From Jiella pacifica (GTDB lineage Bacteria; Pseudomonadota; Alphaproteobacteria; Rhizobiales; Rhizobiaceae), in the NCBI RefSeq assembly GCF_010500815.1, contig NZ_JAAAMG010000024.1, positions 1 through 64,000 of the forward strand: a stretch of DNA of 64,000 nucleotides, read 5' to 3'. Made by a program: the position numbers and the translations under genes. Position 1 is the first letter of the stretch. Every line of letters starts with the position of its first letter. Positions 3,263-37,000 of the stretch are shown one piece after another. Under the pieces are notes generated by a model, which did no database searches, was not told the origin of the DNA, and saw nothing but the letters and a program-made list of their open reading frames with translations.

Positions 3263-3276
3263 TTGATTTTCGTCAA
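3263..3276. promoter_or_regulatory. FixK/FNR-type box between convergent genes
   Basis: TTGATTTTCGTCAA fits the FixK consensus TTGM-N6-KCAA. It sits between the 3' ends of fixJ (plus) and the cox operon (minus), not upstream of any annotated start. At the usual -41.5 position it would start transcripts near 3311 (plus, antisense to the cox end) or near 3228 (minus, antisense to fixJ). Confidence 0.5.
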
Positions 3277-3346
3277 GCCCTTGGCTTGGCATCGAAAATC
3301 GGATGTGTGCAGCAGGCGGATCCGTCAGCATCCTCGCCCGCTGGTA

Positions 3347-3472
3347 CTAGCAGCAGGGAAACCTGATCTCGGCCAGGAGTTTGGCGAACTCGCTGTCGAC
3401 CTGCCTCTTTGGCGGGCTGCGGGCAGGCCGGCGGGCGAACCATCGTCGCAGGACGTGCCCGAGCGCGCTCAT
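3347..3472 (-). CDS. 41-residue hypothetical protein coupled to coxF
   Basis: A 41-codon frame whose ATG overlaps the stop of the XdhC-family gene as ATGA, the same junction used elsewhere in this operon (coxS/coxL, coxD/coxE). The product is basic (MSALGHVLRRWFARRPARSP at the start) and ends in two cysteines (EIRFPCC). I recognise no family. The coupling argues that it is translated, but chance is possible at this length. If real, the terminal Cys pair could bind metal or form a disulfide; that is inference only. Confidence 0.42.
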   Translation of the reverse strand: MSALGHVLRRWFARRPARSPPKRQVDSEFAKLLAEIRFPCC

Positions 3473-4302: not shown

Positions 4303-4313
4303 GCCGGCCTCCC

Positions 4314-6391: not shown

Positions 6392-6436
6392 GGCTTTGCC
6401 CGGTGGGCGGCTCGTCGCCGCCACGCCTGTCCTCGC

Positions 6437-8856
<2,420 letters not shown>

Positions 8857-8860
<4 letters not shown>

Positions 8861-9348: not shown

Positions 9349-9408
9349 GGGGCAGATCTCCTCGGCAACGCGACGAGGCGCGCTGGCGTTTCTCGGGCGG
9401 CGATCCGT

Positions 9409-10598: not shown

Positions 10599-11924
<1,326 letters not shown>

Positions 11925-12006
11925 GTCCTCCCAAGCATGCCCGGCCGGCTCTCGTACCCAGTCGAGAACCATTCTAGCAGAAAGCCTGTGCGCTGAGCTA
12001 CTCCCG

Positions 12007-12043: not shown

Positions 12044-12047
12044 AGCA

Positions 12048-12953
12048 CTATCCGGTGATGCGGGTGCCCTTGTCGCCGGCAACGATCGCGACGGCATCCT
12101 CCAGTCTTCCGATCGCCGCGTCGCCGCCGGTCGTCTTGGCGAAGGAAGCTGCGGCGGCGATCTTCGGGCGCATCGATCCAGCCGGAAAGCTCTCCGGCGA
12201 CAGTTCGCCGCCCGAGATCCGGTCGATTCGTCGCGCCCTGTCCGTGCCGAAACCCGCATAGACGCCGTCGACGTCGGTCAGGAGCAGGAGCATGTCCGCC
12301 CCGAGTTGGCGCGCCAGCAATTCGCTGGCGAAATCCTTGTCGATCACCGCCTCCACGCCGATGAGGCCGCCGTGCGCCCTGGCGATGACCGGAATGCCCC
12401 CGCCGCCACCGCAGATAACGATCACGTCGTGATCGACCAGCATTGACACCACGCGCGACTCTAGGATCTCCAGCGGCTTCGGCGAGGCGACGACCCGTCG
12501 CCAGCCGTCGCCGTCCGGAGCGACGCGCCAGCCGCGCTCGGCGGCAAGGCGGTCGGCGGTCGCCTCGTCATAGACCGGGCCGATCGGCTTGGTGGGTGCG
12601 GCGAAGGCAGGATCGTCGCGGGCGACCTTCACCTGTGTCAGGAGCGTCGCGATGTCCCGGCCCGGCAGGAGCGCCGCGAGCTCCTGCTCGATCAGGTAGC
12701 CGATCATCCCCTCGCTCTCGGCGCCGAGGATGTCCAGGGGATAGGCGCCGTCGGCTGGGCCGGCCGCCGCCTGGAGCGCCAGCAATCCGACCTGCGGGCC
12801 GTTGCCATGGGTGACGACGATCTGGTGCCCGGCCCGGACGAGCCCTGCCAGCGCGTCGGCAGCGCGGCGGACGTTCGTCCGCTGGTTCTCGGCCGTCAGC
12901 GCCTCGTGCCGGCGCAGAAGGGCATTGCCACCAAGGGCGACGACGATCCGCAT
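12048..12953 (-). CDS. arcC: carbamate kinase
   Basis: Last step of the arginine deiminase pathway: carbamoyl phosphate + ADP gives ATP, CO2 and NH3. The 301-residue protein fits the family (about 300-310), with N-terminal VVALGGNALL, VTHGNGPQVGLL, VICGGGGGIPV, and the nucleotide-site segments DKDFASELLA and LLLTDVDGVY. The ribosome-binding site GGAGG lies in the end of arcB, and only 2 nt separate the genes. Confidence 0.95.
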   Translation of the reverse strand: MRIVVALGGNALLRRHEALTAENQRTNVRRAADALAGLVRAGHQIVVTHGNGPQVGLLALQAAAGPADGAYPLDILGAESEGMIGYLIEQELAALLPGRDIATLLTQVKVARDDPAFAAPTKPIGPVYDEATADRLAAERGWRVAPDGDGWRRVVASPKPLEILESRVVSMLVDHDVIVICGGGGGIPVIARAHGGLIGVEAVIDKDFASELLARQLGADMLLLLTDVDGVYAGFGTDRARRIDRISGGELSPESFPAGSMRPKIAAAASFAKTTGGDAAIGRLEDAVAIVAGDKGTRITG

Positions 12954-12955
12954 CG

Positions 12956-13957
12956 TCAGCCTCCGATCGTCGCGACGAGCACGGCCTTGATGGTGTGCAT
13001 GCGGTTCTCGGCCTGTTCGAAGACGATCGAGGCCTCGGATTCGAACACCTCCTCGGAAACCTCCATGCAGTCGATGCCGTAGCGCTCGGCGATGCTCTTG
13101 CCGACTTCGGTTTCCGTGTTGTGGAAGGCCGGCAGGCAATGCATGAACTTGGCGTAGGGATTGCCGGTCGCCTGCATCGCCGCTTTGGTCACGCGGTAGG
13201 GCGTCAAAAGGGCGATGCGCTCGTCCCAGACGGCGTCCGGCTCGCCCATCGACACCCAGACGTCGGTGTAGAGGAAATCGGCACCCTTCACCCCTTCATC
13301 GACGTCGTCGGTGAGGAGCAGGCTGCCTCCAGTCTTGGCGCCAAGCGTCCGCAGATGCTCGACGAAGGCCTCGTCCGGCCACAGCGCTTTCGGCGCCGCG
13401 ATGCGCATGTCCATGCCGACCTTGGCGGCCCCGAGGGCGAGTGAGCGCGCAACGTTGTTGTGGCCGTCGCCGAGGAAGGTCACCGTAATGTCCGAGAGAT
13501 GCTTGTGCGTGAACTCGCGCATGGTCATGAAGTCGGCAAGCGTCTGGGTCGGATGCGACTCGTCCGTCAGTCCATTATAGACCGGGACCCCCGCATTTTG
13601 AGCGAGTTCCACCACCATCGCATGGCCGGCGCCGCGAAACTCGATCGCATCGTAGACGCGGCCGAGCACACGGGCGGTGTCCTTCACCGACTCCTTGTGG
13701 CCGATATGGCTGCCGGATGGCCCGAGATAGGTCACATGCGCGCCCTGGTCGTAGGCTGCGACCTCAAATCCGGTGCGAGTGCGGGTGGAATCCTTCTCGA
13801 AGATCAAGGCGATGTTCTTGCGGTAAAGCCGCAGCTGCTCGGTGCCGCTGGTCTTCGCCGCCTTCAACTCCGCCGCGAGGCGCAGAAGGTGGCGGATCTC
13901 GGCGGGCGAGAGGTCGTCGAGCGTCAGCAGGCTGCGCCCATGCAGATTGGTCGACAT
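12956..13957 (-). CDS. arcB: ornithine carbamoyltransferase, catabolic
   Basis: Converts citrulline and phosphate to ornithine and carbamoyl phosphate when used catabolically. The 333-residue protein is the size of catabolic enzymes. It has the carbamoyl-phosphate site [11 protein letters not shown] (about 57-67), [11 protein letters not shown], the ornithine-binding stretch and the catalytic [15 protein letters not shown] near residue 275. Assignment as arcB rather than biosynthetic argF rests on its place between arcA and arcC. Confidence 0.93.
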
Positions 13958-13975: not shown

Positions 13976-15187
13976 TCAGACGGGATCGCGGACGAGCGGA
14001 CAAGTCATGCAGTGGCCGCCGCCGCGTCCGCGGCTGAGCTCTGCCCCCTCGACGGTGATGACCTCGACGCCGGCGTGGCGCAGAAGCGTATTGGTGTAGA
14101 CGTTGCGGTCGTAGGCGACGACGACGCCGGGCTCGACGGCGATGACGTTGTTGCCGTCATCCCACTGCTCGCGCTCGGCCTCGTAAGAGTCGCCGCCCGT
14201 CGCAACGATCCGCAGGCTGGACAAACCCATCGCCTCGGCGACGACATCGACGAAGGGCGCAGTCTCCTCGACGACGTCGACGCTGCCCTCGGCGTCGCCG
14301 GGCCGCAGCGAGAAGCTGCGCAGGCGGTCGACGATTGGCGGGAACAGGGTGACGAGGTCGCGGTCGCAGAAGGTAAAGACCGTGTCGAGATGCATGAAGC
14401 TGCGGTCGCGGGGCATCAGGGCGGCGATGACACGGTTCGCAGTGCCGGTCGCAAAGAGGCGCTTGGCCAGCGCGCTGACCGCCTGGGGCGTCGTGCGCTC
14501 GCCCATGCCGATCAACACGACCCCGGCTCCAACCGGCATCACGTCGCCTCCCTCCAGCGTCGCGTGGCCGGGTTCGGACAGCAACGTGAAGTCCGCCTCG
14601 CGGAATCGCGGGTGGAAACGGTAGATCGCCTCGACGTTCAGAGCTTCCGGGCGGCGTGCGGGCCAATACATCGAGTTGACGGTGACCCCGCCATAGATCC
14701 AGCACGAACTGTCGCGGGTGAAGAGCTGGTTCGGCAGCGGCGGCAGGACGAAGTCCTGCGTCGCCAATGCCAAGCCGCTGAGGCCGGCTGGCGCAAAGGG
14801 CAGCTCGGCTCTCGCGATGCCGCCAATGAGTGCGGTGGCGAGGCTGCCTGCCTCCATACCGTCCAACCAAGAGCGCAACTCGTCGAGAAGATCCCAGCCG
14901 ACGATGTCCGGATCAAGCCGCCGGTCCAGGAGCCAGGCCCGCCCTTCGGGAACAGCCATGGTCTCGGCGAGGAGCTTGCCGAGATCGCGGACCACCACGC
15001 CGCGCTCATTGAGCGTGTCGGCGAGGATGTCGTGCTCCTGCCGAGCCTTCCTCACCCACAGCACGTCGTCGAACAGCAGGGAGTGACAGTTGGCCGGGGT
15101 CAGCCGGCGCAGGCTGAGATCTGGGCGGTGGATCAGCACCTCGCGGAGCCGACCAACTTCGGAATGAACGCCGAGCGTCATCATCAT
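13976..15187 (-). CDS. arcA: arginine deiminase
   Basis: Hydrolyses arginine to citrulline and ammonia. The 403-residue protein has the full catalytic set: [22 protein letters not shown] and the nucleophile cysteine in GGGHCMTCP near the C-terminus. It opens with three consecutive ATG codons (15187 used; the third is equally possible). It is followed after 18 bp by arcB, and arcD is 21 bp upstream. Confidence 0.95.
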
Positions 15188-15208: not shown

Positions 15209-16675
15209 TCAAAAGGGGCTGACGGCGCCCGTCCACATTTCGTAGGCGGCGAAAAGGCCAACCGCGACCAGAGCGAGCGCGAGCACCGCTTCGACGGCGG
15301 TGAAGGCGCGTTCCTTGCGTTGGCGACGGGCATAAACGTAGAGGGGGACGCCGACGGCATAGAGCAGCGCGCACATGAAGAGGTAGGCAGGTCCCGCGGC
15401 GTAAACGAGCCACAGGCCGTAGAGCGTCGCGATCAACCCGATCAGCATCGGGCCGGTGCGCGATTGGCCGGCCTCGTAACTTTCGCCGGTGATCGCGAGT
15501 TTGGCCGCGTAGGCGCCGGAGAAGATGTAGGGCACCAGGATCGCCGTCGACGCGATCGAGAACAGCGCCTGATAGGTGCTCTCTGCGAACAGGGTGATGA
15601 TCAGAAAGAGCTGGACCAGCGCGTTCGTTATAAAGAGCGCGGTCGAGGGAACGCCGCGCCCGCTCTCGCGGGCGAAGAACTCCGGCATCGTGCCGTCGCG
15701 GCCGGCCACATGCGGGATCTCCGCGGCGAGCAGCGTCCAGCTCAGGAAGGCGCCGAGCACCGAGACGACCAGCGCGACGTTGATGAGGATGGCGCCCCAC
15801 GGCCCGACGACATGCTCCAGAACTCCCGCCATCGACGGATTTTTCAGCCCGGCGAGTTCGGGCTGCGTCATGATCCCCAGCGAGAGCAGCGAGACCAGGG
15901 CGTAGAGCGCAAGGCAGGTGAAGAAGCCGATGCCGGTCGCCAGTGCGATCTCGCTCCGCCGATCGGCGCGGGCTGAAAACACGCTCGCACCTTCGATGCC
16001 TATGAACACCCACAAAGTGACCAGCATCGTGCTCTTGACCTGAGCGGTGATCGAGCCGAGGCCGGCGTTTCCGAGGCCGGAGAAGTCGAGGGAGAAGACG
16101 TCGAGCTTGAAGGCGACGACGGCGATGCCGATGAACAGGACGATCGGCGCGATCTTGGCGATGGTGACGATCGTATTCACACCGGCCGCCTCGCGGAGCC
16201 CGCCAAGGATCAGGCCGTGAACGAGCCAGAGCAAGACCGAGGCGCCGAGCACCGCTTGCCAGGTGTTGCCCTCACCGAACGCCGGAAAGAAATAGGAAAG
16301 TGCGCTGAACACGATGACGGCGTAGGAGACGTTGCCGAGCCAGGCGCTGATCCAGTAGCCCCAGGCGCTGTTGAAGCCGATGAAGGATCCGAAGCCGGCC
16401 TTTGCATAGGCATAAGGTCCGGCGTCGAGGTCGGGTTTGCGGGTGGCCAGCGACTGGTAGACGAAGACCAGCGCGAGCATGCCGATCGCGGTGATGCCCC
16501 AGCCGATCATGATGGCGAGCGGCCCGGCGCCCGCGGCCATGTTCTGCGGCAGACTGAACACGCCCGAGCCGACCATCGAGCCGATGACGAGGGCGGTCAG
16601 CGCCCCGAGGCGCAACTTGCCGGTCTTGTCTGCCGATGCGGGCGGCGCCGTTACACCTATTTCCGTCGTCACCAT
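15209..16675 (-). CDS. arcD: arginine/ornithine antiporter
   Basis: Basic amino acid antiporter of the APC family that exchanges external arginine for ornithine, so the pathway runs without energy cost for uptake. The 488-residue protein has about 12 membrane spans, with the family start LGALTALVIGSMVGSGVFSL and, near residues 230-250, FIGIEGASVFSARA. The start follows GGGAGATTACC. As first gene of the arc operon it carries the promoter; a perfect FNR/FixK box lies 64 bp upstream of the ATG. Confidence 0.94.
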   Translation of the reverse strand: MVTTEIGVTAPPASADKTGKLRLGALTALVIGSMVGSGVFSLPQNMAAGAGPLAIMIGWGITAIGMLALVFVYQSLATRKPDLDAGPYAYAKAGFGSFIGFNSAWGYWISAWLGNVSYAVIVFSALSYFFPAFGEGNTWQAVLGASVLLWLVHGLILGGLREAAGVNTIVTIAKIAPIVLFIGIAVVAFKLDVFSLDFSGLGNAGLGSITAQVKSTMLVTLWVFIGIEGASVFSARADRRSEIALATGIGFFTCLALYALVSLLSLGIMTQPELAGLKNPSMAGVLEHVVGPWGAILINVALVVSVLGAFLSWTLLAAEIPHVAGRDGTMPEFFARESGRGVPSTALFITNALVQLFLIITLFAESTYQALFSIASTAILVPYIFSGAYAAKLAITGESYEAGQSRTGPMLIGLIATLYGLWLVYAAGPAYLFMCALLYAVGVPLYVYARRQRKERAFTAVEAVLALALVAVGLFAAYEMWTGAVSPF

Positions 16676-16738: not shown

Positions 16739-16752
16739 TTGATCCGCATCAA
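16739..16752 (-). promoter_or_regulatory. perfect FNR/FixK box upstream of arcD
   Basis: TTGATCCGCATCAA is a perfect TTGAT-N4-ATCAA dyad. Its centre is about 70 bp before the arcD ATG. A class II promoter with the box at -41.5 would start near 16704 and leave a leader of about 29 nt, which is geometrically ideal. Anr/FNR control of arcDABC is established in Pseudomonas. Confidence 0.85.
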
Positions 16753-17129
16753 ATCGGTGCCGAATGCGTCGACACCCTTACAAATCTTGCGCCGGCCTGA
16801 AGGGAGAAACTCCAATTCTTCCCGACGCATGGCCCGTGCGGTTAGGTTGATCATCCGCAGGCAATTTTATCTGGAATTGGCTTCTCAGAGGCGCCGGCAG
16901 CGCAGGTAGACACAGAAAGAGTGCCGTCTGCATGCCTTTTTCCGTCCGAGGCCGAGGTGGCGAGACGCTCTCCAAGCTTTGCCTTGGGTTGAAGAATCGC
17001 AGCGTTGATAGGGACGTGTTCAATTCCGCGTTCCGATTTGCGCCAAGTCAAAGCTGCCGCGTTACGCTCCGACCATAGTCCCCTAAGTTTGGCATCATGC
17101 CGCTTCCGCGGCCGTCGGAGCGCGCCGGA
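16753..17129. other. arcD / receiver-gene divergent intergenic region
   Basis: About 375 bp without a supported gene beyond the FNR box. Its base composition is somewhat more AT-rich than the flanking genes. It must hold the promoter of the downstream receiver gene. No second perfect FNR box was seen. Confidence 0.4.
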
Positions 17130-17504
17130 ATGACCGCAGAGAAGACCCTGGTACTCGTGGTGGACGACGACGAGGCGGTTCGGGAGTCGCTCAAGTTTTC
17201 TCTCGAACTCGACGGGCTTTGGGTCGGCGTCTGTAAGGCCGGCGAGGAGCTGTTCGTTCATCCGCACCTATCGGCCGCCAAATGTGTCGTCATCGATATC
17301 AAGATGCCGGACATGGATGGCATTTCCGTTCTCAAAGCCTTGCGTTTGCTCGGCCTCAAGCTCCCTGCGATCCTGATCACCGGCCACGCTACCGCTGCTT
17401 TGCGGCGGCGCGCAATCGAGGCCGGAGCCTGCGCGGTGCTCCAGAAGCCGCTCCTGGGGACCGTCCTTCCCGACTGCATCAGGGAGGCGATTCAGCTCGA
17501 TTGA
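17130..17504 (+). CDS. stand-alone FixJ-type receiver protein
   Basis: A 124-residue receiver domain with no output domain. It has the acidic pocket DDDE (12-15), phospho-acceptor D56 in VVIDIKMPDMDG, LITGHA with the switch residue and LQKPL with the conserved lysine, so it should be phosphorylatable. The sequence resembles the FixJ/NodW receiver class. A longer start at 17097 exists; 17130 has GGAG upstream. With FixL the only FixJ-type kinase in view, it could be an alternative FixL partner or phosphate sink, but that is inference. Confidence 0.85.
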   Translation: MTAEKTLVLVVDDDEAVRESLKFSLELDGLWVGVCKAGEELFVHPHLSAAKCVVIDIKMPDMDGISVLKALRLLGLKLPAILITGHATAALRRRAIEAGACAVLQKPLLGTVLPDCIREAIQLD

Positions 17505-19500
<1,996 letters not shown>

Positions 19501-19501
<1 letters not shown>

Positions 19502-20830: not shown

Positions 20831-21069
20831 ACTGGCTCGCCTTCATCAGCATTCTCGGCGCCGTGATCGCCGTCTCCTTCGGCGCGATCGGGCCGGCGCT
20901 CGGCGAGGGGCGCGCGGTCGCTGCCGCCATGGACGCCATAGCCCGCCAGCCGGAAGCTTCCGGCACGATCTCGCGCACACTCTTCGTCGGCCTCGCGATG
21001 ATCGAGACCATGGCGATCTATTGTCTCGTGGTGGCACTGCTGCTGCTCTTCGCCAACCCTTTCGTCTGA
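20827..21069 (+). CDS. atpE: N-type ATPase subunit c
   Basis: 80-residue hairpin forming the rotor ring. Helix 1 contains GPALGEGRA, helix 2 contains [11 protein letters not shown]60 is the canonical ion-binding carboxylate. E27 stands where sodium-binding c subunits such as Ilyobacter have Gln32, so each site has two carboxylates; T61 and Y65 match the Ser66 and Tyr70 positions. As I recall, the Burkholderia pseudomallei N-ATPase ring has the same two-carboxylate arrangement and was judged proton-selective. Selectivity here is inferred. Confidence 0.93.
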
Positions 21070-21076
21070 TCTTCTC

Positions 21077-21820
21077 ATGACCATCGACTGGTGGACGCTC
21101 GCCATCCAGGCCATCAACGTCCTGATCCTTATCTGGCTGCTCGCCCGCTTTTTGTGGCGGCCGCTGGAGGCGAGCATCGAGGCGAGGCGCAAGGCCGCCG
21201 AGGCGACGCTGAAGGAGGCGGAGGCAATGCGCGCGGAGGCGGCCGCAGGCCTCGCGGAGATCGACGCGACGCGGGCCCGCTTCGCCGAGGAGCGCGCGGC
21301 CGGCCTTGCCGAGGCGAAGATGGCGGCCGAGGCGCTTCGAACGGATATTCTTTCCAAGGCCGCCGAAGAGGCCGAGGCGCAGAAGGCGCTAGCGCGGACT
21401 GCTCTCGCCCGGGAGGCGGAGGAAACCCGCGCCGCGTGGGCCAAGGCGGCGGCGCAGCTCGCCGTCGACATCGCCCGCAAGCTGCTCGCGCATCTCGACG
21501 AACGAGCGCTGCGCGAGGCCTTTCTCGGATCGCTCACCCGCGAGTTGGCGCAACTGCCGGAAGCCGCGCGCCGGAGCCTCGGCGCCAATGGCGCCGCGCT
21601 CACCGCCGTCAGCGCCACCCCGCTCGACAGCACCGAAAAGGAGCGCTGCCGGGCGCTGCTCGGAGAGGCGATCGGCCATCCACCACATCTCGCCTTCGCG
21701 ACCGATCCCGGCCTCATCGCCGGTCTGGAACTGAAGGGACCGCATGTGATCGTCGCGAACAGCTGGCGAGCGGACCTCGAGACAATTCGCGCGGAGATCG
21801 GTCATGACCGAAGCCGTTGA
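21077..21820 (+). CDS. atpF: N-type ATPase subunit b with delta-like C-terminus
   Basis: 247 residues, much longer than ordinary b (about 160). It has one N-terminal span ([19 protein letters not shown]), then a long Ala/Glu-rich coiled coil (about 30-150) and a globular tail. The tail (about 185-240) contains [20 protein letters not shown], which resembles the end of subunit delta (DPSLIGG... pattern of E. coli delta). N-ATPase operons have no separate delta gene, so b probably does both jobs. It overlaps atpA by 17 bp. Confidence 0.9.
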
Positions 21821-23354
21821 CGCTACAAGCCCGGATCGCTGGGCCGACGGCGCGCGGCGCCGCATCGACACCGCCATGGTCGGGCCGCGAACTCGTCAGA
21901 TCGGCCGGGTCGAGGAGATCGCCGACGGGATCGCCATGATCTCCGGGCTGCCGGACGTGCGGCTCGACGAACTCCTCAGCTTCGAGGATGGCCGCTACGG
22001 TTTCGCCCAGGTGCTGGAGGAGGAGCGGATCGGCTGCGTCCTCCTCGACGACCACTCCGGTGTCCAGGCCGGCGACACCGTCTCGGGCACGGGCGACGTG
22101 CTGCGCGTACCGGTCGGCGAGGGGCTGCTCGGCCGCATCGTCGATCCGCTCGGCCGACCGCTGGACGGGAAGGGGCCGATTGCGGCGGCAGAGCTCATGC
22201 CGATCGAGCGGCCCGCTCCGGCGATCGTCGAACGCGACGCCGTCACCCGGCCGGTCCAGACCGGTATCCTCGTCCTCGATACGCTGTTCGCCCTCGGTCG
22301 TGGCCAGCGCGAGCTGATCATCGGCGACCGCGCCACCGGCAAGACGACCATCGCCATCGACGCAATCATCAACCAGAAGACGAGCGACATGATCTCGGTC
22401 TATGTCGCGGTCGGCCAGAAGAGCGCCAGCACCCGCCGCGCGATCGATGCGATCCGGGCGCGCGGCGTACCCGAACGCACCATCGTCGTCGTCGCCAGCC
22501 CATCGGCTGCACCCGGCCTGCAATGGATCGCGCCTTTTGCGGGAATGACGATGGCCGAATACTTCCGCGACCGCGGCCGGCACGCCCTGGTGGTCTTCGA
22601 CGACCTTTCCAAGCACGCCGCGACCCATCGCGAGATCGCTCTCCTGACTCGCCAGTCGCCCGGCCGCGAGGCCTATCCCGGCGACGTGTTCTACCTCCAT
22701 GCCCGGCTTCTGGAGCGGGCCGCGATGCTGTCTTCCGAAATGGGGGGTGGCTCGCTCACGGCGTTGCCCATCGCCGAGACCGATGCCGGCAACCTCAGCG
22801 CCTATATTCCCACCAACCTGATCTCGATCACCGACGGCCAGATCGTCCTCGATACGAGGTTGTTCAACGAGGGGCAGAAGCCGGCGGTCGACGTCGGCAC
22901 CTCCGTCTCCCGCGTCGGCGGCAAGACCCAGGCGCATGCCTTGCGGGAAGCGGCCGAGACGATACGGCTCGATTATGCGCAGTTCCTCGAACTGGAAATG
23001 TTCACCCGCTTCGGCGGTCTCGCCGACGCCCGGGTGAAAGCGCGATTGGCGCGGGGCGCGCGGATCCGCGCGATCCTCGGCCAGCGGCCCCATCGCCCGT
23101 TCAAGCTCTCCGAAGAGGTTGCGCTGGTGGTGGCCGTGCAAAGCGGACTCGCCGACGCCCTGCCGGTGGAACGGCTCGTCGATCTGGTCCAGGAGATCAC
23201 GACCGGCTTGGAGCGGGCAGCGCCGGAGGCGGTGCGGCAGATCGAGGCGAATGGCGCACTGGATGGGCCAGGGCGCAAGGTGCTGCAGGATGCCCTGGCT
23301 GCGATGATCGCCCGGCTCAGGCCGCCCGCGGGAGAGGCCCGGGCGAATGAGTGA
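21804..23354 (+). CDS. atpA: N-type ATPase subunit alpha
   Basis: Non-catalytic nucleotide-binding subunit of F1, 516 residues. It shows the beta-barrel N-domain, Walker [16 protein letters not shown] (about 172-186), [12 protein letters not shown], and the conserved [16 protein letters not shown] and [16 protein letters not shown] stretches, with the arginine finger in SVSRVGG. The N-terminus is not extended for a separate delta subunit. It overlaps atpF and atpG. Confidence 0.94.
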
Positions 23355-24201
23355 CCGGCTTGCCGACGTCGCGGCCCGGATCGCGGGCATCGAGCAGCTC
23401 GGCAGCGTCGTCAACGCCATGCGCGGCATCGCCGGCGCGCGCATCCAGAAGGCGCATCAGGAACTGCAAGCCGTCGACGCCTATGCCGGAACGATCGCGG
23501 CGAGCCTGGGCCGTATCCTCGCGGTGGCGCCGCCGAGCGATCCGCAGCAGGCCCGTCAGGGGCGGGATGCATCGATCGTCTTTTGCGCCGAGCAGGGCTT
23601 TGCCGGGGCCTTCTCCCAGCGCGTGCTCGAGGCGATCGAGGGTGATTCCCGGCCACGAACGCTACTGCTCGTCGGCACGCGCGGGGCCGCGCTCGCCACC
23701 GAGCGGGGTCTTACGTTGGAGTTTGCGGCAGCGATGCCGTCGCATTCGGCGGGCGTGCCGAAGCTTGCGAGCGACATCGTCGACGCGCTCGCGGCACGGA
23801 TCGCGAATGCTCAGATCGAGCGGGTCGAGGCGATCTATGCCGAGGCGACGGGGGGCGCCGGGCTGAAGGTCGTGCGTCGACCGCTGCTGCCACTTGATCC
23901 GGCGACCTTTTCCCGCGTCGCACGGGCCGAGTCGCCAATCCTCAACCTGCCGGTGGCTCGGCTCCTCGCAGATCTGACCATGGAATATCTGCATGCGCTG
24001 CTCTGCGAGGCGGCGCTGCACGCCTTTGCGGCCGAGAATCAGGCGCGGGTGGCCGCCATGGCGGCGGCGCACCGCGAGATCGAACGGCAGCTCGGCTTGC
24101 TCCAGGCGAACTATCGCCAGGTTCGCCAGGAAGAGATCACGGCCGAGATCATCGAGCTCGCCGGTGGTGCGGCGGCGGCTCGTGCGGCATCACCGCGTTG
24201 A
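23347..24201 (+). CDS. atpG: N-type ATPase subunit gamma
   Basis: Central rotor shaft, 284 residues. The N-terminal helix ([20 protein letters not shown]) and C-terminal helix (near 215-275, [12 protein letters not shown] end) form the coiled coil, with the Rossmann-like middle in between ([18 protein letters not shown]). Sequence divergence from standard gamma is high, as usual in the N class. It is the last gene of the operon. Confidence 0.9.
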
Positions 24202-24316: not shown

Positions 24317-24334
24317 CTACGTAGTATCCCTTAG
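24317..24334 (+). promoter_or_regulatory. FixJ-type binding site upstream of fixK
   Basis: CTACGTAGTATCCCTTAG matches the pattern of FixJ targets at rhizobial fixK promoters (TAMGTAG...CCCTTA). It ends 78 bp before the fixK ATG. FixJ sites typically lie about 69 to 44 bp before the start point, which would put the transcript start near 24378 and leave a leader of about 34 nt. Confidence 0.75.
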
Positions 24335-24411: not shown

Positions 24412-25155
24412 ATGCACAGCGTTGCCATCGCCCAAGTCTTCGACACGGACCTGATTGCGACTTCGCCGGGTGTCGAGCCGCGAGCAAGACGGGCCCCTGC
24501 CGACAGACAGGCACCGGCCGAGACCGGCGCCGGCAACAAGGGGCGCGCTGCTTCAGCTACGGGCATGCCGCTCGCCGGCCAGGTGCTCAACTTCGGCGAA
24601 GGCCGGCAGATCTATGCCGAGGGCGACACCGTCCATTCCTTCTACAAGGTGATGAGTGGGGTCGTGCGGACCTGCCGGTTTACCAGCGACGGGCGCCGGC
24701 AGATCGACGGCTTCCATGGCGAGGGCGAGATTTTCGGCCTTGAGACGGGCGGCGAACATCGCTTGTCGGCCGAGGCCGTGACCGATTGCTGCGTCGTCGC
24801 CTATCGCTGGTCGGGGCTCTCCGCACTCGCCGGCAGCGAAGCCGACATGGCGCGCACTGTCTTTCATCTTGCCATGAGCTGCTTCGAACGGGCTCAGGAA
24901 CATGCGCTCCTGCTCGGCCGGCGCAGCGCCGCGCAGAAGCTCGCAGCCTTCCTGCTCGACCTCGGCGGCCGAGGCAGCGACAACGCCGTGGACCTCGCCA
25001 TGACCCGCCAGGACATCGCCGACTATCTGAACCTCACCATCGAGACGGTGTCGCGAACGCTGTCACAGTTCGAGCGCGACCATCTGATCGCGCTGCCTTC
25101 GAGCCGCCACGTCGTCTTGCGGAATCCGGTGGCGTTGCGGGGTCTCGTCGACTGA
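24412..25155 (+). CDS. fixK: Crp/Fnr-family regulator FixK
   Basis: 247-residue regulator with a cyclic-nucleotide-binding fold (about 50-165) and an HTH_Crp domain. The recognition helix is LNLTIETVSRTLSQFE, with the E-x-x-S-R set that reads TTGAT half-sites. There is no N-terminal four-cysteine cluster, so it is FixK-like rather than an O2-sensing FnrN; its oxygen response would come through FixLJ. The start is preceded by GAGGGAAG. An N-terminal extension of about 45 residues is poorly conserved. Six matching boxes lie in this window. Confidence 0.88.
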   Translation: MHSVAIAQVFDTDLIATSPGVEPRARRAPADRQAPAETGAGNKGRAASATGMPLAGQVLNFGEGRQIYAEGDTVHSFYKVMSGVVRTCRFTSDGRRQIDGFHGEGEIFGLETGGEHRLSAEAVTDCCVVAYRWSGLSALAGSEADMARTVFHLAMSCFERAQEHALLLGRRSAAQKLAAFLLDLGGRGSDNAVDLAMTRQDIADYLNLTIETVSRTLSQFERDHLIALPSSRHVVLRNPVALRGLVD

Positions 25156-30058: not shown

Positions 30059-30892
30059 TCAACGGCCGAGGAACAGAGGCATCGGAGGCTTTTCGGTCAT
30101 TGCCTGGGTCACCCCGCCGAACAGCCATTCCCGCAGGCGCGAATGGCCGTAGGCGCCCATCACGATCATCTCCGCAGACATGTCCATCGCATGCCGGCGC
30201 AGAGCCTCCTCCACGTCCCTGCCTTCGCTGGAGAGCCTTTCGACGGTGACGTTTGCGCCATGCCGCGCAAGATAGGCAGCGATGTCGGCGCCGGGTTCTG
30301 GTCCGTCGCCCCAGGACGTCGCTTGGGGATCGACCAGGACGACATGGACCGCATCCGCACCGGAGAGAATGTCCGCTGCCTGGCGGACGGCCCGGGCGGC
30401 TTCGATCGTCGATGACCAGGCAACCATCACCTTGCGGGGCTTGAGCGTCGGAGCCGCGTCTTTGGGCAACATCAGAACCGGGCTCTCCGCCTCGAACAGA
30501 GCGCCCTCGAGAACGGCATCCCACAGATCGCGCTCGGCGATCATTTGCGGACCGAGGACCACGAGATCCGCATAGCGGCCGCGACGGCCGACGATGCCGG
30601 CCATCATTGCGCGCTCTACATGGACTGAATCCACATCCGCCGACAGCCCGTCCGCCGCAAGTGAGGCGTTGATGGCGTCGATCTGCTCGCGAAGCGCGCG
30701 TATCCTGGCGTCCTGCTCCCTTAGCCAAAGGTCGGCGATCGCAGCGTGTTCGGCGAGCGGCGGCGGCTGAGAGACCGATGTGACGAGCAGCGAAAGATGA
30801 GAGCCGTTCTCGTCGCAGAGGCGCTGCAACATTTCGAGATCGCTCTTCCAGAGTTCGACGTTGACAACGCCGAGGATCGTCTTGAATCGCAT
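30059..30892 (-). CDS. tandem universal stress protein (UspA family)
   Basis: 277 residues made of two UspA folds (about 1-140 and 145-277). The second copy has a complete ATP-binding loop, GAYGHSRLREWLFGGVTQAM; the first has a degenerate one (VLGPQMIAERDLWDAVLEGA). Tandem Usps next to FixK boxes are common members of low-oxygen regulons. A FixK-type half-matching box lies 77 bp upstream of the ATG. Function is likely stress survival; the ligand is unknown. Confidence 0.87.
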   Translation of the reverse strand: MRFKTILGVVNVELWKSDLEMLQRLCDENGSHLSLLVTSVSQPPPLAEHAAIADLWLREQDARIRALREQIDAINASLAADGLSADVDSVHVERAMMAGIVGRRGRYADLVVLGPQMIAERDLWDAVLEGALFEAESPVLMLPKDAAPTLKPRKVMVAWSSTIEAARAVRQAADILSGADAVHVVLVDPQATSWGDGPEPGADIAAYLARHGANVTVERLSSEGRDVEEALRRHAMDMSAEMIVMGAYGHSRLREWLFGGVTQAMTEKPPMPLFLGR

Positions 30893-31297
30893 GGTCTTTT
30901 CGCTTGTTGGGCGGCCGATCGTTTCGGCGGCCTTGGGTGGAATCTAGCGAAATGTCCGATACCGGCATTTGCGGTGGATCAATTCGCACGACGAAAGATC
31001 TCGGCGCGTCGGCGATAGGACACGCCGTGCTCGCGCCGTCTCCAGGACCTTGATCCACGCTGGCCGATCCGCCACGCGGGCGCCGCCGCGGCAAAAAATC
31101 CGTCGAGCATCGTCAATCGATCTTGAGATCAAAGATGGTGACGGGCTTTGACGCGACGCTGGATCAGGGCGGCATCGCGAGACGAGCAGCTGGCAGGCTC
31201 GAAACCGTCGCCGACCTACGGACCGGGCGGAAAGCTCGATTGTCCCTTTCTTGTCGCTGGTCCGCGGACGCTCGCTGGATGTGTGAACAAAAGCCCG
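30893..31297. other. usp upstream region, no other gene supported
   Basis: About 405 bp holding the usp promoter and the end of the small gene's transcript. Overlapping frames here lack domains and ribosome-binding sites. Apart from the FixK-type box at 30969-30982 nothing stands out. Confidence 0.4.
30969..30982 (-). promoter_or_regulatory. weaker FixK-type box upstream of usp
   Basis: TTGCGGTGGATCAA fits the FixK2 consensus TTGM-N6-KCAA but not the stricter FNR dyad. Placed at -41.5 it gives a start near 30934 and a leader of about 42 nt. Confidence 0.5.
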
Positions 31298-31565: not shown

Positions 31566-31579
31566 TTGATCCTGATCAA
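31566..31579 (-). promoter_or_regulatory. perfect FNR/FixK box
   Basis: TTGATCCTGATCAA is a perfect dyad. On the minus strand it is ideally placed for the 68-residue gene, with a predicted start near 31531. The ABC operon ends at 31706 on the same strand, so no other gene is a natural target. Confidence 0.85.
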
Positions 31580-31705: not shown

Positions 31706-32833
31706 TCAGATCCGCGCCAGGACGCCCCGGAAGCGCAGCAGCGACAGGGCGAAGTAAACTCCTCCCTGTGCCGTGAAGGTGAGAAGGTCCGGCCAGACCG
31801 TGCCGAGGCCGGCGCCGCGATACAGTACGCCTTGCGCGAAGGCGACGAAGGAGGGCGAAGGGGCGACCACCTGCATCGTCAGGCGCAGCCAGTGCGGCAT
31901 GCTTTCCAGCGGCGTCATGCCGCCTGACAGGAGGTTCAGTACCACCATGATCGGAATCACAAGAAGGCCGAACTGGCCCATCGAGGTGGAGAAGGTGGCG
32001 AGGAGGATGCCGAGCGAGGCGATCGTCACGGTGTAGAGGGCGGTTCCAGCGAGAAACAGCGGCATCGACCCGGCGATCGGCACGGCGAGCGCCCATTGCA
32101 CGACGACGATGAGGCACAGCGCCGCCGCGACGACGATCACCAGCCCGTTGGCGAAGATCTTCGACAGGACGATCTCGGCCGGGGTCACCGGCATGACGAG
32201 GAGATGCTCGATCGTGCCATGCTCGCGCTCGCGGATCAGCGCGGCGCCGGCGAGGATGAGGGTCAGCATGGTGATGCTGTTCATCACCTGCATCACCGAC
32301 CCGAACCAGACCGTTTCGAGATTCGGATTGAACCAGGCGCGGACAACGAGATCCACCGGCTCGCGCGCGCTGCCGGGCCCACCCCCGAGAAAGCCGGCGA
32401 TTTCGCCCGAAACGATGCTCGCGAGGTCGGTGGCGCCGTTGCCGGCCTGGGCCATGGCCGTCGCGTCGATTTCGAGCAGGAGTTCCGGACGGCGGCCCGA
32501 CACGAGATCGGCCTCGAAACGTGGCGGAACGTGTAGGACGAAGACGAACCGGCCGGCATCCAGCGCCGCATCGACGGCGTCAGCCGCGATCTCCTCCGGC
32601 GCCTGGAACTCCGGCGGGCGGATGGCGTCCGCGAGCCGGCGCGAGAGCTGGGAGTGGTCTTCGTCGACGATGGCCACGGCGACGTGCCGCACCTCCGTCG
32701 AGGCGTCGTTCGAGACCATGTAGATCGCCACGGTGAAGGAATAGACGACGAGGATCAGCATGACCGGATCGGCCCAGATGCTGTGCAGCTCCTTGCCGAT
32801 CAGCCTCAAGACGTTGGAGATCGTGCGCCGCAT
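31706..32833 (-). CDS. ABC-2 type permease (YhhJ-like)
   Basis: 375-residue membrane subunit: one N-terminal span (about 22-42), a large extracytoplasmic domain (about 45-170) and five C-terminal spans, the DrrB/YhhJ fold. FREQUENT family markers REREHGTIEHLLVMPVTPAEI (after span 2) are present in part as EHGTIEHLLVMPVTP. It starts 2 nt after the RbbA-like gene and completes an operon with the same order as E. coli yhiI-rbbA-yhhJ. The substrate is unknown. Confidence 0.88.
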   Translation of the reverse strand: MRRTISNVLRLIGKELHSIWADPVMLILVVYSFTVAIYMVSNDASTEVRHVAVAIVDEDHSQLSRRLADAIRPPEFQAPEEIAADAVDAALDAGRFVFVLHVPPRFEADLVSGRRPELLLEIDATAMAQAGNGATDLASIVSGEIAGFLGGGPGSAREPVDLVVRAWFNPNLETVWFGSVMQVMNSITMLTLILAGAALIREREHGTIEHLLVMPVTPAEIVLSKIFANGLVIVVAAALCLIVVVQWALAVPIAGSMPLFLAGTALYTVTIASLGILLATFSTSMGQFGLLVIPIMVVLNLLSGGMTPLESMPHWLRLTMQVVAPSPSFVAFAQGVLYRGAGLGTVWPDLLTFTAQGGVYFALSLLRFRGVLARI

Positions 32834-32835
32834 CG

Positions 32836-35568
32836 TCAGCGCTCCTGCTTCTTCAGCGCCAGTTGCGACAGAAGGAGAAACACCAGCGCAAAGCCGGCGA
32901 GCGCCAGGACATTCGGCCACAGGTCGAGCCAGCCGAGGCCCTTGGTGAAGCAGCCGGTGGTGATCGGCTGATACCAGGCGGAGGGGAAGGCGAGGCCGAC
33001 ATATCGCCCGCCCCCCTCCAGCGAGGAGACCGGGACGATCAGGCCGGAAAAGTTCACCGCCGGGATGATCGAGAGGATCGCCGTGGCGAAGATCGCCGCG
33101 ACCTGGGTGCGGGTGAAGCATGAGAGCAACTGGCCGAAGCCGGTCGTCCCGGCGATGTAGAGGACCGTGGCAACGGCCAGCAGCGACAGCGAACCTCGAA
33201 AGGGTACCTGGAAGAGGAACAGCGCGATCAGCACCAGCGTCGCGGCGCTGACGAGGCCGATCGCGACATAGGGAAGCTGCTTGCCGAGGAGAAACTCGAC
33301 CTTGGAGATCGGCGTCGCATGAAGATTGGCGATCGATCCGGTCTCTTTCTCACGCACGACGCCGACCGCCGCCATGATCGCCGGGATCAGCACCAGCATC
33401 AGCATGATGACGTTGGGCACCGTGGCATTGACGCTGCGAAAGGCCTGGTTGAAGCGCAGCCGCGGCAGCAGCGTATAGGCCGCCGTCGCTTCCGTGCCGC
33501 TTTGCGCCGCAAGCGTCGCGGAATAGGCGTTGGCGACGCCGAGGACGTAACCCCGTGCGGTCTCGGCGCGAAACGGCATCGCCCCGTCGAGCGTCACAGA
33601 TATCTGCGGCCGGCGCCCGGAGACGAGATCGCGGCCGTAGCCGTCGGGGACTTCGACGACGAAGCCGAGTTCGCCCGATTGCAGCCGCTCCGTCATCTCC
33701 GTCGCTGAATCGATCGCCGGCTGCTCGGCGAAATAGCGCGAGCTCGAAAACTGCTCGACGAGCTCGCGGCTTTCCGGTGTCCTATCCTGGTCGAAGGCGG
33801 CGAAGCTCAGATTCTCGACATTGAAGGAGATGCCGTATCCGAAGGTGACCATCAGGATGATCGGCCCGGCGAGGGCGAAGAACAGCCGGATGCGATCGCG
33901 CGTCAGCTCCATCGTCTCGCGCAGTGTATAGGCCCACAGCCGCTTGGTGGAAAAGCGCCGCGGCGCCGTCGCCCGCCGCGGTGGTTCGGCGATCACGGGC
34001 ACAGTTTCGATCGCGGAGGCAGGCGGAACCTCGGCGCCGGTGGCTGCTTCGAGGTGGTCGATGAAGGCGTCTTCGAGCGAGGCTGCTCCGCGCTCGGCGA
34101 CGAGATCGCCCGGCGCGCCCACCGCCAGCACACGGCCGGCATGCATCAGCGAAATGCGGTCGCAGCGCTCGGCCTCGTTCATGAAGTGGGTCGAGATGAA
34201 GATCGTCACCCCGTCCTCGCGCGACAGCTGGACGAGGCTGCGCCAGAAGCCGTCGCGGGCGATCGGATCGACGCCGGAGGTGGGCTCGTCGAGGATCAGA
34301 ACCGCCGGGCGGTGGATGACGGCCACGGCGAGCTGCAGCCGCTGGCGGATGCCGAGCGGCAGGACGCCGGGCTTGCGGTCGGCGTGGTCGGCAAGGCCGT
34401 AGCGCTCCAGCATTGCCTCGATGCGGGCCGCCACCTCCGAGGCCGGAACGTGGAACAGCCGCGCATGCAGGTCGAGATTCTGCCGGACGGTCAGTTCCTC
34501 GTAGAGCGAGAAGCTCTGGGACATGTACCCGACATTGCCCCGGGTCTTCATGTCGCGGGCGTCCATCGGCTGGCCGAACAGCCGGGACGAGCCTTCGGTC
34601 GGCTGCAACAGGCCGGTCAGCATCTTCATCGTCGTCGTCTTGCCGCAGCCATTCGAGCCGAGAAAGCCGAAGATCTCGCCGCGCTCGATGCGAAAGCTGA
34701 CATGGTCCACGGCGGTGAAGTCGCCGAACCTGCAGGTCAGGCCGTCAGCTTCGATCGCCGGCACGCCATCGGCAGCAGCCGGGCGGGGCGGCACGAGGAC
34801 CGGTACGTGGCCGGCGCGCACGGCTTCCGGCAGCAGCGAGATGAAGGCGGCTTCGAGAGTGTCTTTGCCGGCGTTGGAGCGGATTTCGGCCGGCGTTCCG
34901 GTGGCGATCACCCAGCCCGCATGCATCGCCGCCAGCCAGTCGAAGCGCTCGGCCTCTTCCATATACGCAGTGGCGACGACGACGCTCATGCCGGGGCGGC
35001 GGGTGCGAATGGTGTCGACGAGGTTCCAGAACTGTCGCCGCGACAACGGGTCGACGCCGGTGGTCGGCTCGTCGAGGATGAGAAGGTCGGGATCGTGGAT
35101 CAGCGCGCAGCAGAGCGCCAGCTTCTGCTTCATGCCGCCAGACAGCTTGCCGGCCGGGCGGTCGACGAAGGGCGACAAGCCGGTGGCGGCGAGCAGCTCG
35201 ACGATCCGCCGCTGCCGCTCTGCGGCGGAATGGCCGAACAGCCGGCCGAAGAAGTCGAGATTCTCTCTCACGCTGAGCGTCGGGTAGAGATTGCGGCCGA
35301 GCCCTTGCGGCATGTAGGCGACGCGCGGCGACGACTGTCGGCGCTGGCCGGCATCGGCCATGTCGCCGCCGAGCGCCATAACTCGGCCGGTCTGGATTTT
35401 TCGCACACCCGCCGCCAGCGCCAGCACGGTCGATTTGCCGACGCCGTCCGGCCCGATCAGCCCGGCCATGCAGCCGGACGGGATGGTGAGATCGAGATGG
35501 TCGAGCGCAAGGCTCGCACCGTAGCGATGCGTCACGCCGGCGAGTTCGACGACCGGACCGACGGTCAT
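32836..35568 (-). CDS. rbbA: RbbA-like fused double ABC ATPase and permease
   Basis: 910-residue fusion of two ABC ATPase domains and an ABC-2 permease. Domain 1 (about 5-235): Walker A GPDGVGKST, signature LSGGMKQKL, Walker B LLILDEPTTG. Domain 2 (about 270-500): Walker A GSNGCGKTT, signature region PLGIRQRLQL (degenerate) and Walker B VLILDEPTSG. The rest (about 545-910) is a one-plus-five-span permease. This is the layout of E. coli RbbA (YhiH), which has been linked to ribosomes, though export is the more likely job in this operon. It overlaps the HlyD gene by ATGA. Confidence 0.9.
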   Translation of the reverse strand: MTVGPVVELAGVTHRYGASLALDHLDLTIPSGCMAGLIGPDGVGKSTVLALAAGVRKIQTGRVMALGGDMADAGQRRQSSPRVAYMPQGLGRNLYPTLSVRENLDFFGRLFGHSAAERQRRIVELLAATGLSPFVDRPAGKLSGGMKQKLALCCALIHDPDLLILDEPTTGVDPLSRRQFWNLVDTIRTRRPGMSVVVATAYMEEAERFDWLAAMHAGWVIATGTPAEIRSNAGKDTLEAAFISLLPEAVRAGHVPVLVPPRPAAADGVPAIEADGLTCRFGDFTAVDHVSFRIERGEIFGFLGSNGCGKTTTMKMLTGLLQPTEGSSRLFGQPMDARDMKTRGNVGYMSQSFSLYEELTVRQNLDLHARLFHVPASEVAARIEAMLERYGLADHADRKPGVLPLGIRQRLQLAVAVIHRPAVLILDEPTSGVDPIARDGFWRSLVQLSREDGVTIFISTHFMNEAERCDRISLMHAGRVLAVGAPGDLVAERGAASLEDAFIDHLEAATGAEVPPASAIETVPVIAEPPRRATAPRRFSTKRLWAYTLRETMELTRDRIRLFFALAGPIILMVTFGYGISFNVENLSFAAFDQDRTPESRELVEQFSSSRYFAEQPAIDSATEMTERLQSGELGFVVEVPDGYGRDLVSGRRPQISVTLDGAMPFRAETARGYVLGVANAYSATLAAQSGTEATAAYTLLPRLRFNQAFRSVNATVPNVIMLMLVLIPAIMAAVGVVREKETGSIANLHATPISKVEFLLGKQLPYVAIGLVSAATLVLIALFLFQVPFRGSLSLLAVATVLYIAGTTGFGQLLSCFTRTQVAAIFATAILSIIPAVNFSGLIVPVSSLEGGGRYVGLAFPSAWYQPITTGCFTKGLGWLDLWPNVLALAGFALVFLLLSQLALKKQER

Positions 35569-36626
35569 TGCGGCAACTTCACCTGGAGCTGCTCCGGCCA
35601 GGAGGCGGAGGGGTCGGTGCGAACGTAGCCGACGCCGCGCACCCCGCCCTTCACCTGTCTTTCGAAGCGCGCGAGCAATTCCCGCGGGATCCGGATCTTC
35701 ACCCGGAAGACCAGCTTCTCGCGTTCCTCCATGGTCTCGACGCTCTTCGGCGTGAACTGCGCATCCGCCGAAACGAAGGTGACGCTGGCGGGAATGACGT
35801 AGTCGGGCGCGGGATCGAGGATGATCCGTGCCTCGTCCCCGACCGCAACCTGGCCGGCCGCGGCGGCGGGCAGATACAGCGACATCGAGACATCGGTGAG
35901 GTCGAGCAGCGTCGCGATGCGGGCGCCGGCCGCCACGACCTCGCCGGTACGGGCGAGCTTGTACTGCACTCGGCCGCGGCGAGGCGCGGTGATCACCATG
36001 TCACCGACGACGGCGTTCAATCGTGAGACCTCGGCCTCGGCGGCGGCGATGCTCGACTGTGCCTGCGCCTTTTCGGCGATCGCCGCCCGCTGGGCGGCCT
36101 CCGCCGTCCGCAGGGCGCCGCGCCGCTCGTCGAGGGATTGGGCGCTGGTATGGCCGGAATGAAAGAGCTCGGCGATGCGGTTGTAGCTCGCCTCTGCAAG
36201 CGCCTTCTCGCTGTCGCGCTGGGCGATCAAGGCCTCGGCCTGGGCGAGCGCGCTCTCCGCCCGCAACACGTCGGCCTGCGCTCCGAGAAGCTGCGCCCGG
36301 TATTCCCGGTCGTCGAGCCGGGCGATCACCTGTCCCGCCTCGACCGTGTCGCCTTCCTCCACCGGCATCTCGGCAAGCCGCCCGGAATACTTGGCGGCGA
36401 CATCGATCTCCTGCGCCTCGATGCGGCCGTTGGAACTGGCAATCGTCTCGGGCAGCTTCTTGCCGCGCAGTCGGTCGAGCAGGGTTTCCAGCCTGGATTC
36501 GGCGGCCGCCGCGGGCATGAAGCGCGGGAAGGGCCAGGCTGAAGAGGGAATCGCCGCAGGCCCCAGAACATCGGGAGCCACGAGAGCGGACAGCACGCAC
36601 AGTATCGTTGGAAAACGGTTGTTCAT
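35565..36626 (-). CDS. HlyD-family periplasmic adaptor (YhiI-like)
   Basis: 353-residue membrane-fusion protein: signal/anchor (TILCVLSALVAPDVLGPAA), biotinyl-lipoyl halves (GRIEAQEIDVAAKYSGRL and APRRGRVQYKLARTGEVV), a long coiled-coil hairpin (about 110-200) and a beta-barrel. It should connect the two ABC-2 permeases to an outer-membrane channel not encoded here. It is the first gene of the export operon; a FixK-type box lies about 120 bp upstream. Confidence 0.9.
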   Translation of the reverse strand: MNNRFPTILCVLSALVAPDVLGPAAIPSSAWPFPRFMPAAAAESRLETLLDRLRGKKLPETIASSNGRIEAQEIDVAAKYSGRLAEMPVEEGDTVEAGQVIARLDDREYRAQLLGAQADVLRAESALAQAEALIAQRDSEKALAEASYNRIAELFHSGHTSAQSLDERRGALRTAEAAQRAAIAEKAQAQSSIAAAEAEVSRLNAVVGDMVITAPRRGRVQYKLARTGEVVAAGARIATLLDLTDVSMSLYLPAAAAGQVAVGDEARIILDPAPDYVIPASVTFVSADAQFTPKSVETMEEREKLVFRVKIRIPRELLARFERQVKGGVRGVGYVRTDPSASWPEQLQVKLPQ

Positions 36627-37000
36627 GGGTGTCGATCGCTCGAGTTCGTCTCGGGAAGGTCGCGGCGGGCCGGCTCCGCCGCGATCGCGTTGAAACCGAC
36701 CGCGACTGCGGTCTGCCCGAGCATGGCGAGAACCAGCAACGCTCGCCTTGATGCGGGTCAAAGCGGCGTCGCAAAGATGTAAGTTCGTCTGACGTTCCTT
36801 CCCGAAAGCCCCGCCGGTTTCGATGAAGTTGCTCCGGGAAGTTGCTTCGGCTTGCCCCCCGGGGACCGGGAGTGGGCGCACTCAGCCCGCGGCGAAGTGG
36901 ACTGGTCGATCGATGGTGCCCGATGCCTCGGGGGTGACACGGGACATTGAAACTCCAGACGCTTCGGGATGCGGCGGATGGTTCGGTGTTTTTCACCGCG
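36627..37000. other. export-operon promoter region
   Basis: About 375 bp between the HlyD start and the end of soxT. It contains the FixK-type box at 36748-36761. A reading frame runs through from HlyD but has no ribosome-binding site or homology, so it is treated as non-coding. Confidence 0.45.
36748..36761 (-). promoter_or_regulatory. FixK/FNR-type box upstream of the export operon
   Basis: TTGATGCGGGTCAA, one mismatch from a perfect dyad. At -41.5 it predicts a start near 36713 and a leader of about 87 nt before the HlyD ATG. Confidence 0.65.

Follow-up and report, generated by a model that had tools for sequence, protein, structure and literature searches.

Predicted FixK/FNR-type control of an N-type ATPase and its recurrence beside arginine deiminase genes, seen from a putative low-oxygen regulatory locus of Jiella pacifica

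Background

N-type ATPases (N-ATPases) are patchily spread enzymes, present in addition to the ordinary ATP synthase; a study by Dibrova (2010) is reportedly devoted to them. Their gene order, with AtpQ and AtpR, and their place as a second enzyme beside the canonical one are set out in the available parts of the literature (Schulz 2017, PMC5376962), and both recur at the locus described here. The accessible text of Schulz 2017 proposes a function in acid homeostasis, does not contain the words 'anaerob' or 'oxygen', and reports for the sole measured N-type c-ring 17 subunits and 5.7 ions per ATP. The second ATP synthase of Gluconobacter oxydans is of the N type and is 2- to 3-fold higher under oxygen limitation, with neither a regulator nor a link to arginine mentioned in the sections at hand (PMC6191907). 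In Burkholderia thailandensis it was the ATP synthase of chromosome 1 that rose under oxygen limitation; the second ATP synthase is not reported as raised in the excerpts available and fell at 37 C along with genes for nitrate reductase and Usp (PMC3966863).

The Anr-controlled arcDABC operon of Pseudomonas aeruginosa is a known case of arginine fermentation governed by an FNR-type protein, as predicted here, and the lxa locus of Burkholderia cenocepacia is likewise a low-oxygen cluster with Usp genes although, unlike the window, B. cenocepacia is described in the accessible part of that source as lacking a full arc operon (PMC3759415). In rhizobia, FixK and FnrN share one binding box (PMC7888657, in part). 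The core regulons described for alphaproteobacterial FixK/FNR proteins by Dufour et al. 2010 use the box found in the window; in the accessible portion of their Table 1, FixL, FixJ, HlyD with ABC exporter parts, phosphoketolase, a kinase and a zinc alcohol dehydrogenase are listed under FixK, and Usp, the cbb3 oxidase, a FixG-type protein and OmpW under FNR, whereas an ATP synthase and the arginine deiminase pathway, both present in the window, are not (PMC2908626). Measured against the library searched, in which no literature linking 'N-ATPase' with 'FixK' or with 'arginine deiminase' was found, the regulon and the enzyme are each known and the link between them is new. To our knowledge, no N-ATPase is joined to the P. 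aeruginosa arc operon. Here we describe a stretch of 64,000 nucleotides (the window) from contig C17 of the J. pacifica genome (G000; 5.77 Mb in 74 contigs).

FixK/FNR-type boxes in the window

A sequence-only reading of the window had listed six TTGM-N6-TCAA boxes, at 3263, 16739, 17586, 30969, 31566 and 36748, all in non-coding gaps, and had taken them to mark one low-oxygen island. All six coordinates are correct, and the gene content assigned around them is borne out by Pfam and NCBIfam. The list is nevertheless a selection, as the window contains 10 matching places (15 hits over both strands; shuffles gave a mean of 1.40 and at most 7), the additional places being 17038, in the gap 5′ of a receiver-domain gene, 17346, within that gene, 42808 and 57445. 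Five of the six (3263, 16739, 17586, 31566 and 36748) are exact TTGA-N6-TCAA palindromes and lie within 33.5 kb; the box at 30969 is imperfect (TTGC..TCAA). Exact palindromes number 48 in the 5.77 Mb genome versus 13 for the reversed control word, and, were the 48 scattered at random, five would fall together in some 33.5-kb stretch with a probability of 0.0076, falling to 0.0004 for five of the 29 intergenic sites. The location in non-coding gaps also holds: by the ORF rule, 5/5 exact sites in the window are intergenic versus 24/43 elsewhere in the genome, and at 17586, 31566 and 36748 any overlap with an ORF is restricted to over-long 5′ ends. The boxes in the window are real and clustered.

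The box at 3263..3276 (TTGATTTTCGTCAA; no strand assigned) has no recognisable target, as it lies 3′ of the end of fixJ with xdhC oriented towards it, and possibly marks a gene since lost or a small RNA. In the region 3214-3470 it stands behind an inverted repeat that follows fixJ, and no gene reads away from it; an identical copy of TTGATTTTCGTCAA is found twice near the N-ATPase of the relative G390, where start codons follow. The box at 31566..31579 (minus strand) is 5′ of an unproven ORF of 68 aa (31298-31504), for which no match was found among 253 loci, and the region around this box had no match in relatives.

The N-ATPase and its promoter region

All nine genes of the N-ATPase order atpDCQRBEFAG are present on the plus strand: atpD (N-type beta, 17634..19082), atpC (19079..19501; TIGR03166 above cut-off), atpQ (19501..19809; PF09527), atpR (19806..20117; PF12966), atpB (20114..20830), atpE (subunit c, 20827..21069), atpF (21077..21820), atpA (21804..23354) and atpG (23347..24201), with AtpQ and AtpR above their Pfam cut-offs. 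A canonical beta subunit is encoded elsewhere in the genome (C1:34684-36090, 831.6 bits), so that the N-ATPase is a second enzyme. Only one of seven subunits (epsilon) passes the NCBIfam cut-offs for the alternate F1F0 enzyme, with beta, alpha, gamma, A, B and C below, and the enzyme belongs to a divergent subclade; N-type is therefore used here in the sense of gene order plus AtpR. In a tree of 92 loci the window falls in a half of 51, separate from the other 41. In subunit c, inspected for a Na+ ligand set, the residues are E27, M58, E60, T61, M62 and Y65, and the ion may be either H+ or Na+; the c-ring of B. pseudomallei was, contrary to prediction, H+ selective (PMC5376962, text available in part). 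The inner glutamate is present at 100/105 N-type loci, the two glutamates, E27 and E60 in the window, being 33 residues apart. At boxed loci the outer site of subunit c reads E-T-M..Y in 14/22 and E-S-T..Y in 2/22.

The exact box 5′ of atpD (TTGATCAGCGTCAA, 17586..17599, plus strand) is followed by a -10-like TAGGAT (17621..17626) at the distance typical of a class II FNR promoter. As an ATG at 17625 overlaps this element, translation of atpD probably starts at 17634. The -10 element predicted from class II spacing is clear for the atpD and Usp boxes and is not clear behind those at arcD, hlyD, 31566 and 3263. Four close relatives (G419, G390, G387 and G389; AtpD 80-86% identical) also have the box 5′ of atpD, with two copies in G419 and G390. 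The sequence 20 nt past the box is TTAGGATG for the window as well as G387, TTAGAATG for G390 as well as G389, and CTACGACT for G419, and TTAGRATG is present there in four of these five loci of the clade. The intervening sequence differs, and the 20-nt spacing matches that expected of a class II FNR promoter. The sequence-only reading had held that boxes not conserved in close relatives would refute it; the N-ATPase box is kept at 5/5 loci of the clade defined by the window's AtpD. In G387, contigs C45 and C49 both have an N-ATPase, with identical box and alignment figures, as might result from a recent duplication or from an assembly artefact.

A survey of N-type loci

TIGR03305 was rejected as a means of recognising N-type beta subunits, as it matched 384/385 genomes with one over the cut-off, and this lack of discrimination led to the choice of AtpR (PF12966). 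AtpR matches were obtained in 30/385 genomes of the class, 20/398 of the phylum, 26/347 of the order and 21/327 of the family, the sets overlapping, and AtpD was also sought in genome contigs, the best 80 matches being kept. After removals, 105 loci of N-type order were counted. Loci were dropped where there was no atpD match (G649, G549, G1301, G1358 and G1279), where atpD was cut by a contig end (G282), where they duplicated others (L050, the same as G389, and the second copy of G387), and where gene order was canonical (24) or unclassified (32). At least eight of the 32 unclassified loci, cut by contig ends, look N-like by AtpD identity (64-79%; G343, G856, G1046, G826, L049, L051, L056 and L060); one of them, L051, is boxed and uncounted. 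Weak AtpR hits in G321, G701 and, as a second hit, G301 were left out.

Among 4352 dyads (256 words by 17 spacers) sought in the 300 bp before atpD at the 105 loci, TTGA-N6-TCAA is the commonest. It is present at 22 loci, compared with a mean of 0.25 and a maximum of 2 in 100 shuffles, and TTGA dyads at spacers other than 6 occur at 0 to 2 loci. The sites are also position-specific: 24 fall in the bin from -250 to 0 relative to atpD, the 23 upstream bins hold 33 in total, the 22 bins from 0 to 5500 past the atpD start hold one, and the reversed word occurs twice over the entire span. TA begins 21 or 22 nt past the box at 11/22 loci, with every other offset at 3 or fewer. In the tree of 92 loci, made by a quick method, the 18 boxed loci then known occupy about eight places. 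The 22 are not independent, as five make up the window's clade, G033, G260 and G162 are almost identical and L083 may be a chance site. An exact box within 300 bp of atpD is absent from 83/105 N-type loci, in four of which (G823, G154, G342 and G1097) a box heads a longer gene run; scanning 74 of the unboxed loci with a matrix yielded few more (6 versus 2 for the control at 10 bits). Control of the N-ATPase by a FixK/FNR-type protein, which the sequence-only reading had rated its least standard proposal, is thus a prediction backed by the 5/5 clade loci and by recurrence at 22/105 and, as judged from these sequences, appears to be the best upheld of its claims.

Arginine deiminase genes beside N-ATPases

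In the window, an arcDABC operon with its own box is divergent from the ATPase. On the minus strand, the exact box at 16739..16752 is 64 bp 5′ of the arcD ORF (arginine-ornithine antiporter, 15209..16675; TIGR03810 above cut-off), which is followed by arcA (arginine deiminase, 13976..15187; NF002381 above and TIGR01078 just below cut-off), arcB (ornithine carbamoyltransferase, 12956..13957) and arcC (carbamate kinase, 12048..13139; TIGR00746 above cut-off). Antiporter, deiminase, transcarbamylase and carbamate kinase are therefore found together. The arcC model match begins at residue 63, consistent with a later true start, and arcA encodes the sole arginine deiminase found in the genome.

The proposed link between arginine fermentation and the N-ATPase drew support from other genomes. 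An arcA, arcB or arcC gene is beside the N-ATPase at 8/105 N-type loci (the window, G823, G1097, G154, G675, G583, G1011 and, in Marinomonas profundimaris, L064) versus 0/56 comparison loci, although the latter (24 canonical plus 32 unclassified) are a weak control, as their stretches are shorter (median 16.1 versus 20.0 kb). In G823 and G1097 a box, arcD, arcA, arcB, arcC and atpD follow one another on a single strand, with the arcC stop codon 2 nt ahead of the atpD start or overlapping it, an arrangement that reads as one operon, and in G154 the box is followed by only arcC and atpD. The arcABC genes are divergent in G675 and are 3′ of the ATPase in G1011, L064 and G583; at these four loci there is no exact box at arc or atpD. 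The further claim, that the island forms one oxygen-controlled module, did not hold as a statement about a conserved unit: a search for arcA in ten relatives, run at E 1e-80 without a positive control, gave 0/10 matches, and gene order differs. An ancestral island is rejected on these grounds, and the pairing in the window was probably acquired late.

Low-oxygen regulators

The window encodes fixL (PAS sensor kinase, 738..2603), whose best NCBIfam hit is sens_FixL_Rhizob at 635.9 bits (cut-off 850 not reached), and fixJ (2590..3213; NF006900 above cut-off), both on the plus strand. A single receiver-domain protein is encoded at 17097..17504 (plus strand), a relative of which is located between fixJ and fixK in G277. 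Further downstream, fixK (24412..25155, plus strand; best NCBIfam hit FixK, 228.5 bits, cut-off 300 not reached) is preceded by CTACGTAG (24317..24324, plus strand), which we take to be a FixJ-like site. The same sequence precedes fixK in G419 and G277 and is absent before fixK in L054. The encoded FixK has the recognition helix LTIETVSR and lacks an N-terminal Cys cluster. As the E-TVSR helix is shared by a FixK paralogue and an FnrN-like protein (three of eight loci examined), the genome has three candidate regulators for the boxes. The FnrN-like protein has a Cys cluster and is encoded near cytochrome oxidase genes.

In G277, fixL, fixJ, the receiver protein and fixK are in a row adjoining a boxed N-ATPase and in G419 fixK is near one. 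A CRP/FNR gene is found close to the ATPase at several loci, among them the window, G419, G277, G823 and G1097; in the last two, the ATPase is followed by a distant relative of FixK/FNR (29% identical) and by another box. The genes that follow fixK, encoding a HAD/ATPase-domain protein (25264-26973) and a P-type cation ATPase (26970-29711), both on the plus strand, form a pair that adjoins fixK in G419 too.

A proposed low-oxygen role for the N-ATPase

In the reading that we favour, with a probability of roughly 0.7, arginine fermentation and a second rotary ATPase are switched on together by FixK or FnrN, so that ATP from ArcC could be spent on an ion gradient. The window would then hold a low-oxygen regulatory locus, with fixLJ, the receiver protein and fixK. 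When oxygen falls, FixL-FixJ (and FnrN) would signal, and FixK, or another FixK/FNR protein, would bind TTGAT-N4-ATCAA-type boxes at class II promoters, from -41.5, activating arcDABC, the N-ATPase, the RbbA-type exporter and the universal stress protein. Arginine fermentation and the N-ATPase would be made together and, as respiration fails, ArcD would exchange incoming arginine for ornithine, ArcA, ArcB and ArcC would yield ATP by substrate-level phosphorylation, and the N-ATPase would hydrolyse part of this ATP to sustain the gradient. We infer the binding, the oxygen response, the direction of the enzyme and the flow of ATP from the boxes, their promoter spacing and conservation, the gene content and the recurrence of arc genes beside N-ATPases. 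ATP-driven pumping is favoured on two grounds: three genomes have carbamate kinase and atpD in a single putative operon, and the measured N-type ring moves 17 ions per turn (PMC5376962, partial text). The rise of the G. oxydans N-type ATPase under oxygen limitation counts for the favoured reading; the 83 loci without an exact box, the 0/10 arcA matches in relatives, the four arc-bearing loci without a box, the arcD box without a clear -10 and the B. thailandensis observations count against it. The sequence-only reading thus keeps its proposals of N-ATPase control and of the arc link and loses the island as a conserved unit and a target for box 3263, and its suggestion of ATP-driven pumping stays a hypothesis.

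Some doubt attaches to the identity of the regulator. It is quite possible, if on balance not expected, that the boxes are functional but answer to the FnrN-like protein or to the second FixK, in which case the proximity of fixLJ and fixK to the N-ATPase would not denote a circuit of its own. The three E-TVSR-helix proteins, one with a Cys cluster and encoded near cytochrome oxidase genes, are consistent with this, as is the box shared by rhizobial FixK and FnrN (PMC7888657, partial text), whereas the fixL-fixJ-receiver-fixK row that adjoins a boxed N-ATPase in G277, and the fixK near one in G419, argue for a local circuit. That the boxes are chance palindromes in an AT-poor genome is highly improbable: about 13 sites genome-wide are expected from the reversed word and box 3263 is without a target, but the enrichment over 105 loci is specific for spacer and position and the spacing to the -10 element is fixed, and on these spacer and position controls chance is rejected.

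The direction of the enzyme allows another interpretation, that the N-ATPase is a low-gradient ATP synthase whose large c-ring lets it make ATP when the gradient no longer suffices for the canonical enzyme. The same regulation would fit, and the ring of 17 subunits agrees with it (PMC5376962, in part), but the operons with carbamate kinase in G823, G1097 and G154 point to a supply of ATP, and we regard this interpretation as unlikely. More doubtful still is a defence against acid, in which arginine deiminase yields ammonia, the N-ATPase expels protons and low oxygen is a cue that accompanies acid. Arginine deiminase is a known acid defence, which counts for this proposal. A role of this type has been put forward for the B. 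pseudomallei N-ATPase (PMC5376962, available in part); against it, the box belongs to oxygen regulators and the other boxed genes encode oxidases and fermentation enzymes.

Beyond the window, co-activation of arginine fermentation and the N-ATPase suggests, tentatively and with a chance somewhat short of even, that such N-ATPases are fermentation-powered membrane energisers at low oxygen, and that in several lineages one FixK/FNR-controlled unit turns arginine into an ion gradient. If so, the simplest form of the unit would be the single operon [box]-arcDABC-atpD, giving a gradient without respiration, and a widespread second ATPase would have a physiological role. The recurrent box and the arc operons make the low-oxygen role and the feeding by arginine experimentally tractable. 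GoxR, the FNR protein of G. oxydans, has reportedly been studied. The link proposed here would supply a regulator for the rise of the second ATPase of that species under oxygen limitation (PMC6191907, accessible sections).

Other boxed genes and neighbouring functions

The remaining two of the six boxes precede a universal stress protein gene (30059..30892, minus strand; one Pfam Usp match, residues 153-273), with the imperfect box at 30969..30982 (minus strand) 5′ of it and TAGATT downstream of the box, and an hlyD-rbbA-ABC2 permease exporter (31706..36626, minus strand; RbbA model NF033858, 1441.9 bits, cut-off 1050), with the exact box at 36748..36761 (minus strand) 5′ of hlyD. The relative G390 is also boxed at its RbbA exporter and at Usp, the latter with a similarly imperfect box, TTGCGCTAGATCAA, likewise 77 bp from the Usp match. 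Both are predicted FixK/FNR targets, as the sequence-only reading had proposed, and are expected rather than new ones, since HlyD with ABC exporter parts and Usp are in the lists already published (PMC2908626, accessible portion). RbbA-type exporter genes adjoin the N-ATPase at locus L186 of G823 and locus L155 of G342, and are near it at 5/92 loci (the window, G390, G976, G823 and G342).

A scan of 20 proteins that adjoin boxes elsewhere in the genome gave cytochrome oxidase subunit I, FixG, OmpW, Usp, a P-type cation ATPase, phosphoketolase, an APH/AAA kinase-like protein, a BON protein and three zinc alcohol dehydrogenases, together with a solute-binding protein and ParA and T2SSE proteins that are seemingly unrelated. 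Strays apart, most of these are on the core regulon list (PMC2908626, accessible portion). Two further groups of genes flank the boxed operons. The region 3469-12029 encodes, on the minus strand, CO dehydrogenase-like CoxM-, CoxS- (8857-9348) and CoxL-like subunits, a MoxR AAA protein, XdhC and an MHYT-LytTR protein. The region 37001-46887 is given to sulfur oxidation, with genes for a sulfur transporter, ArsR, a DsbD-like protein, SoxY, SoxZ, a SoxA-like protein, a 5′-nucleotidase-like protein (a SoxB candidate) and a molybdopterin oxidoreductase with a cytochrome c.
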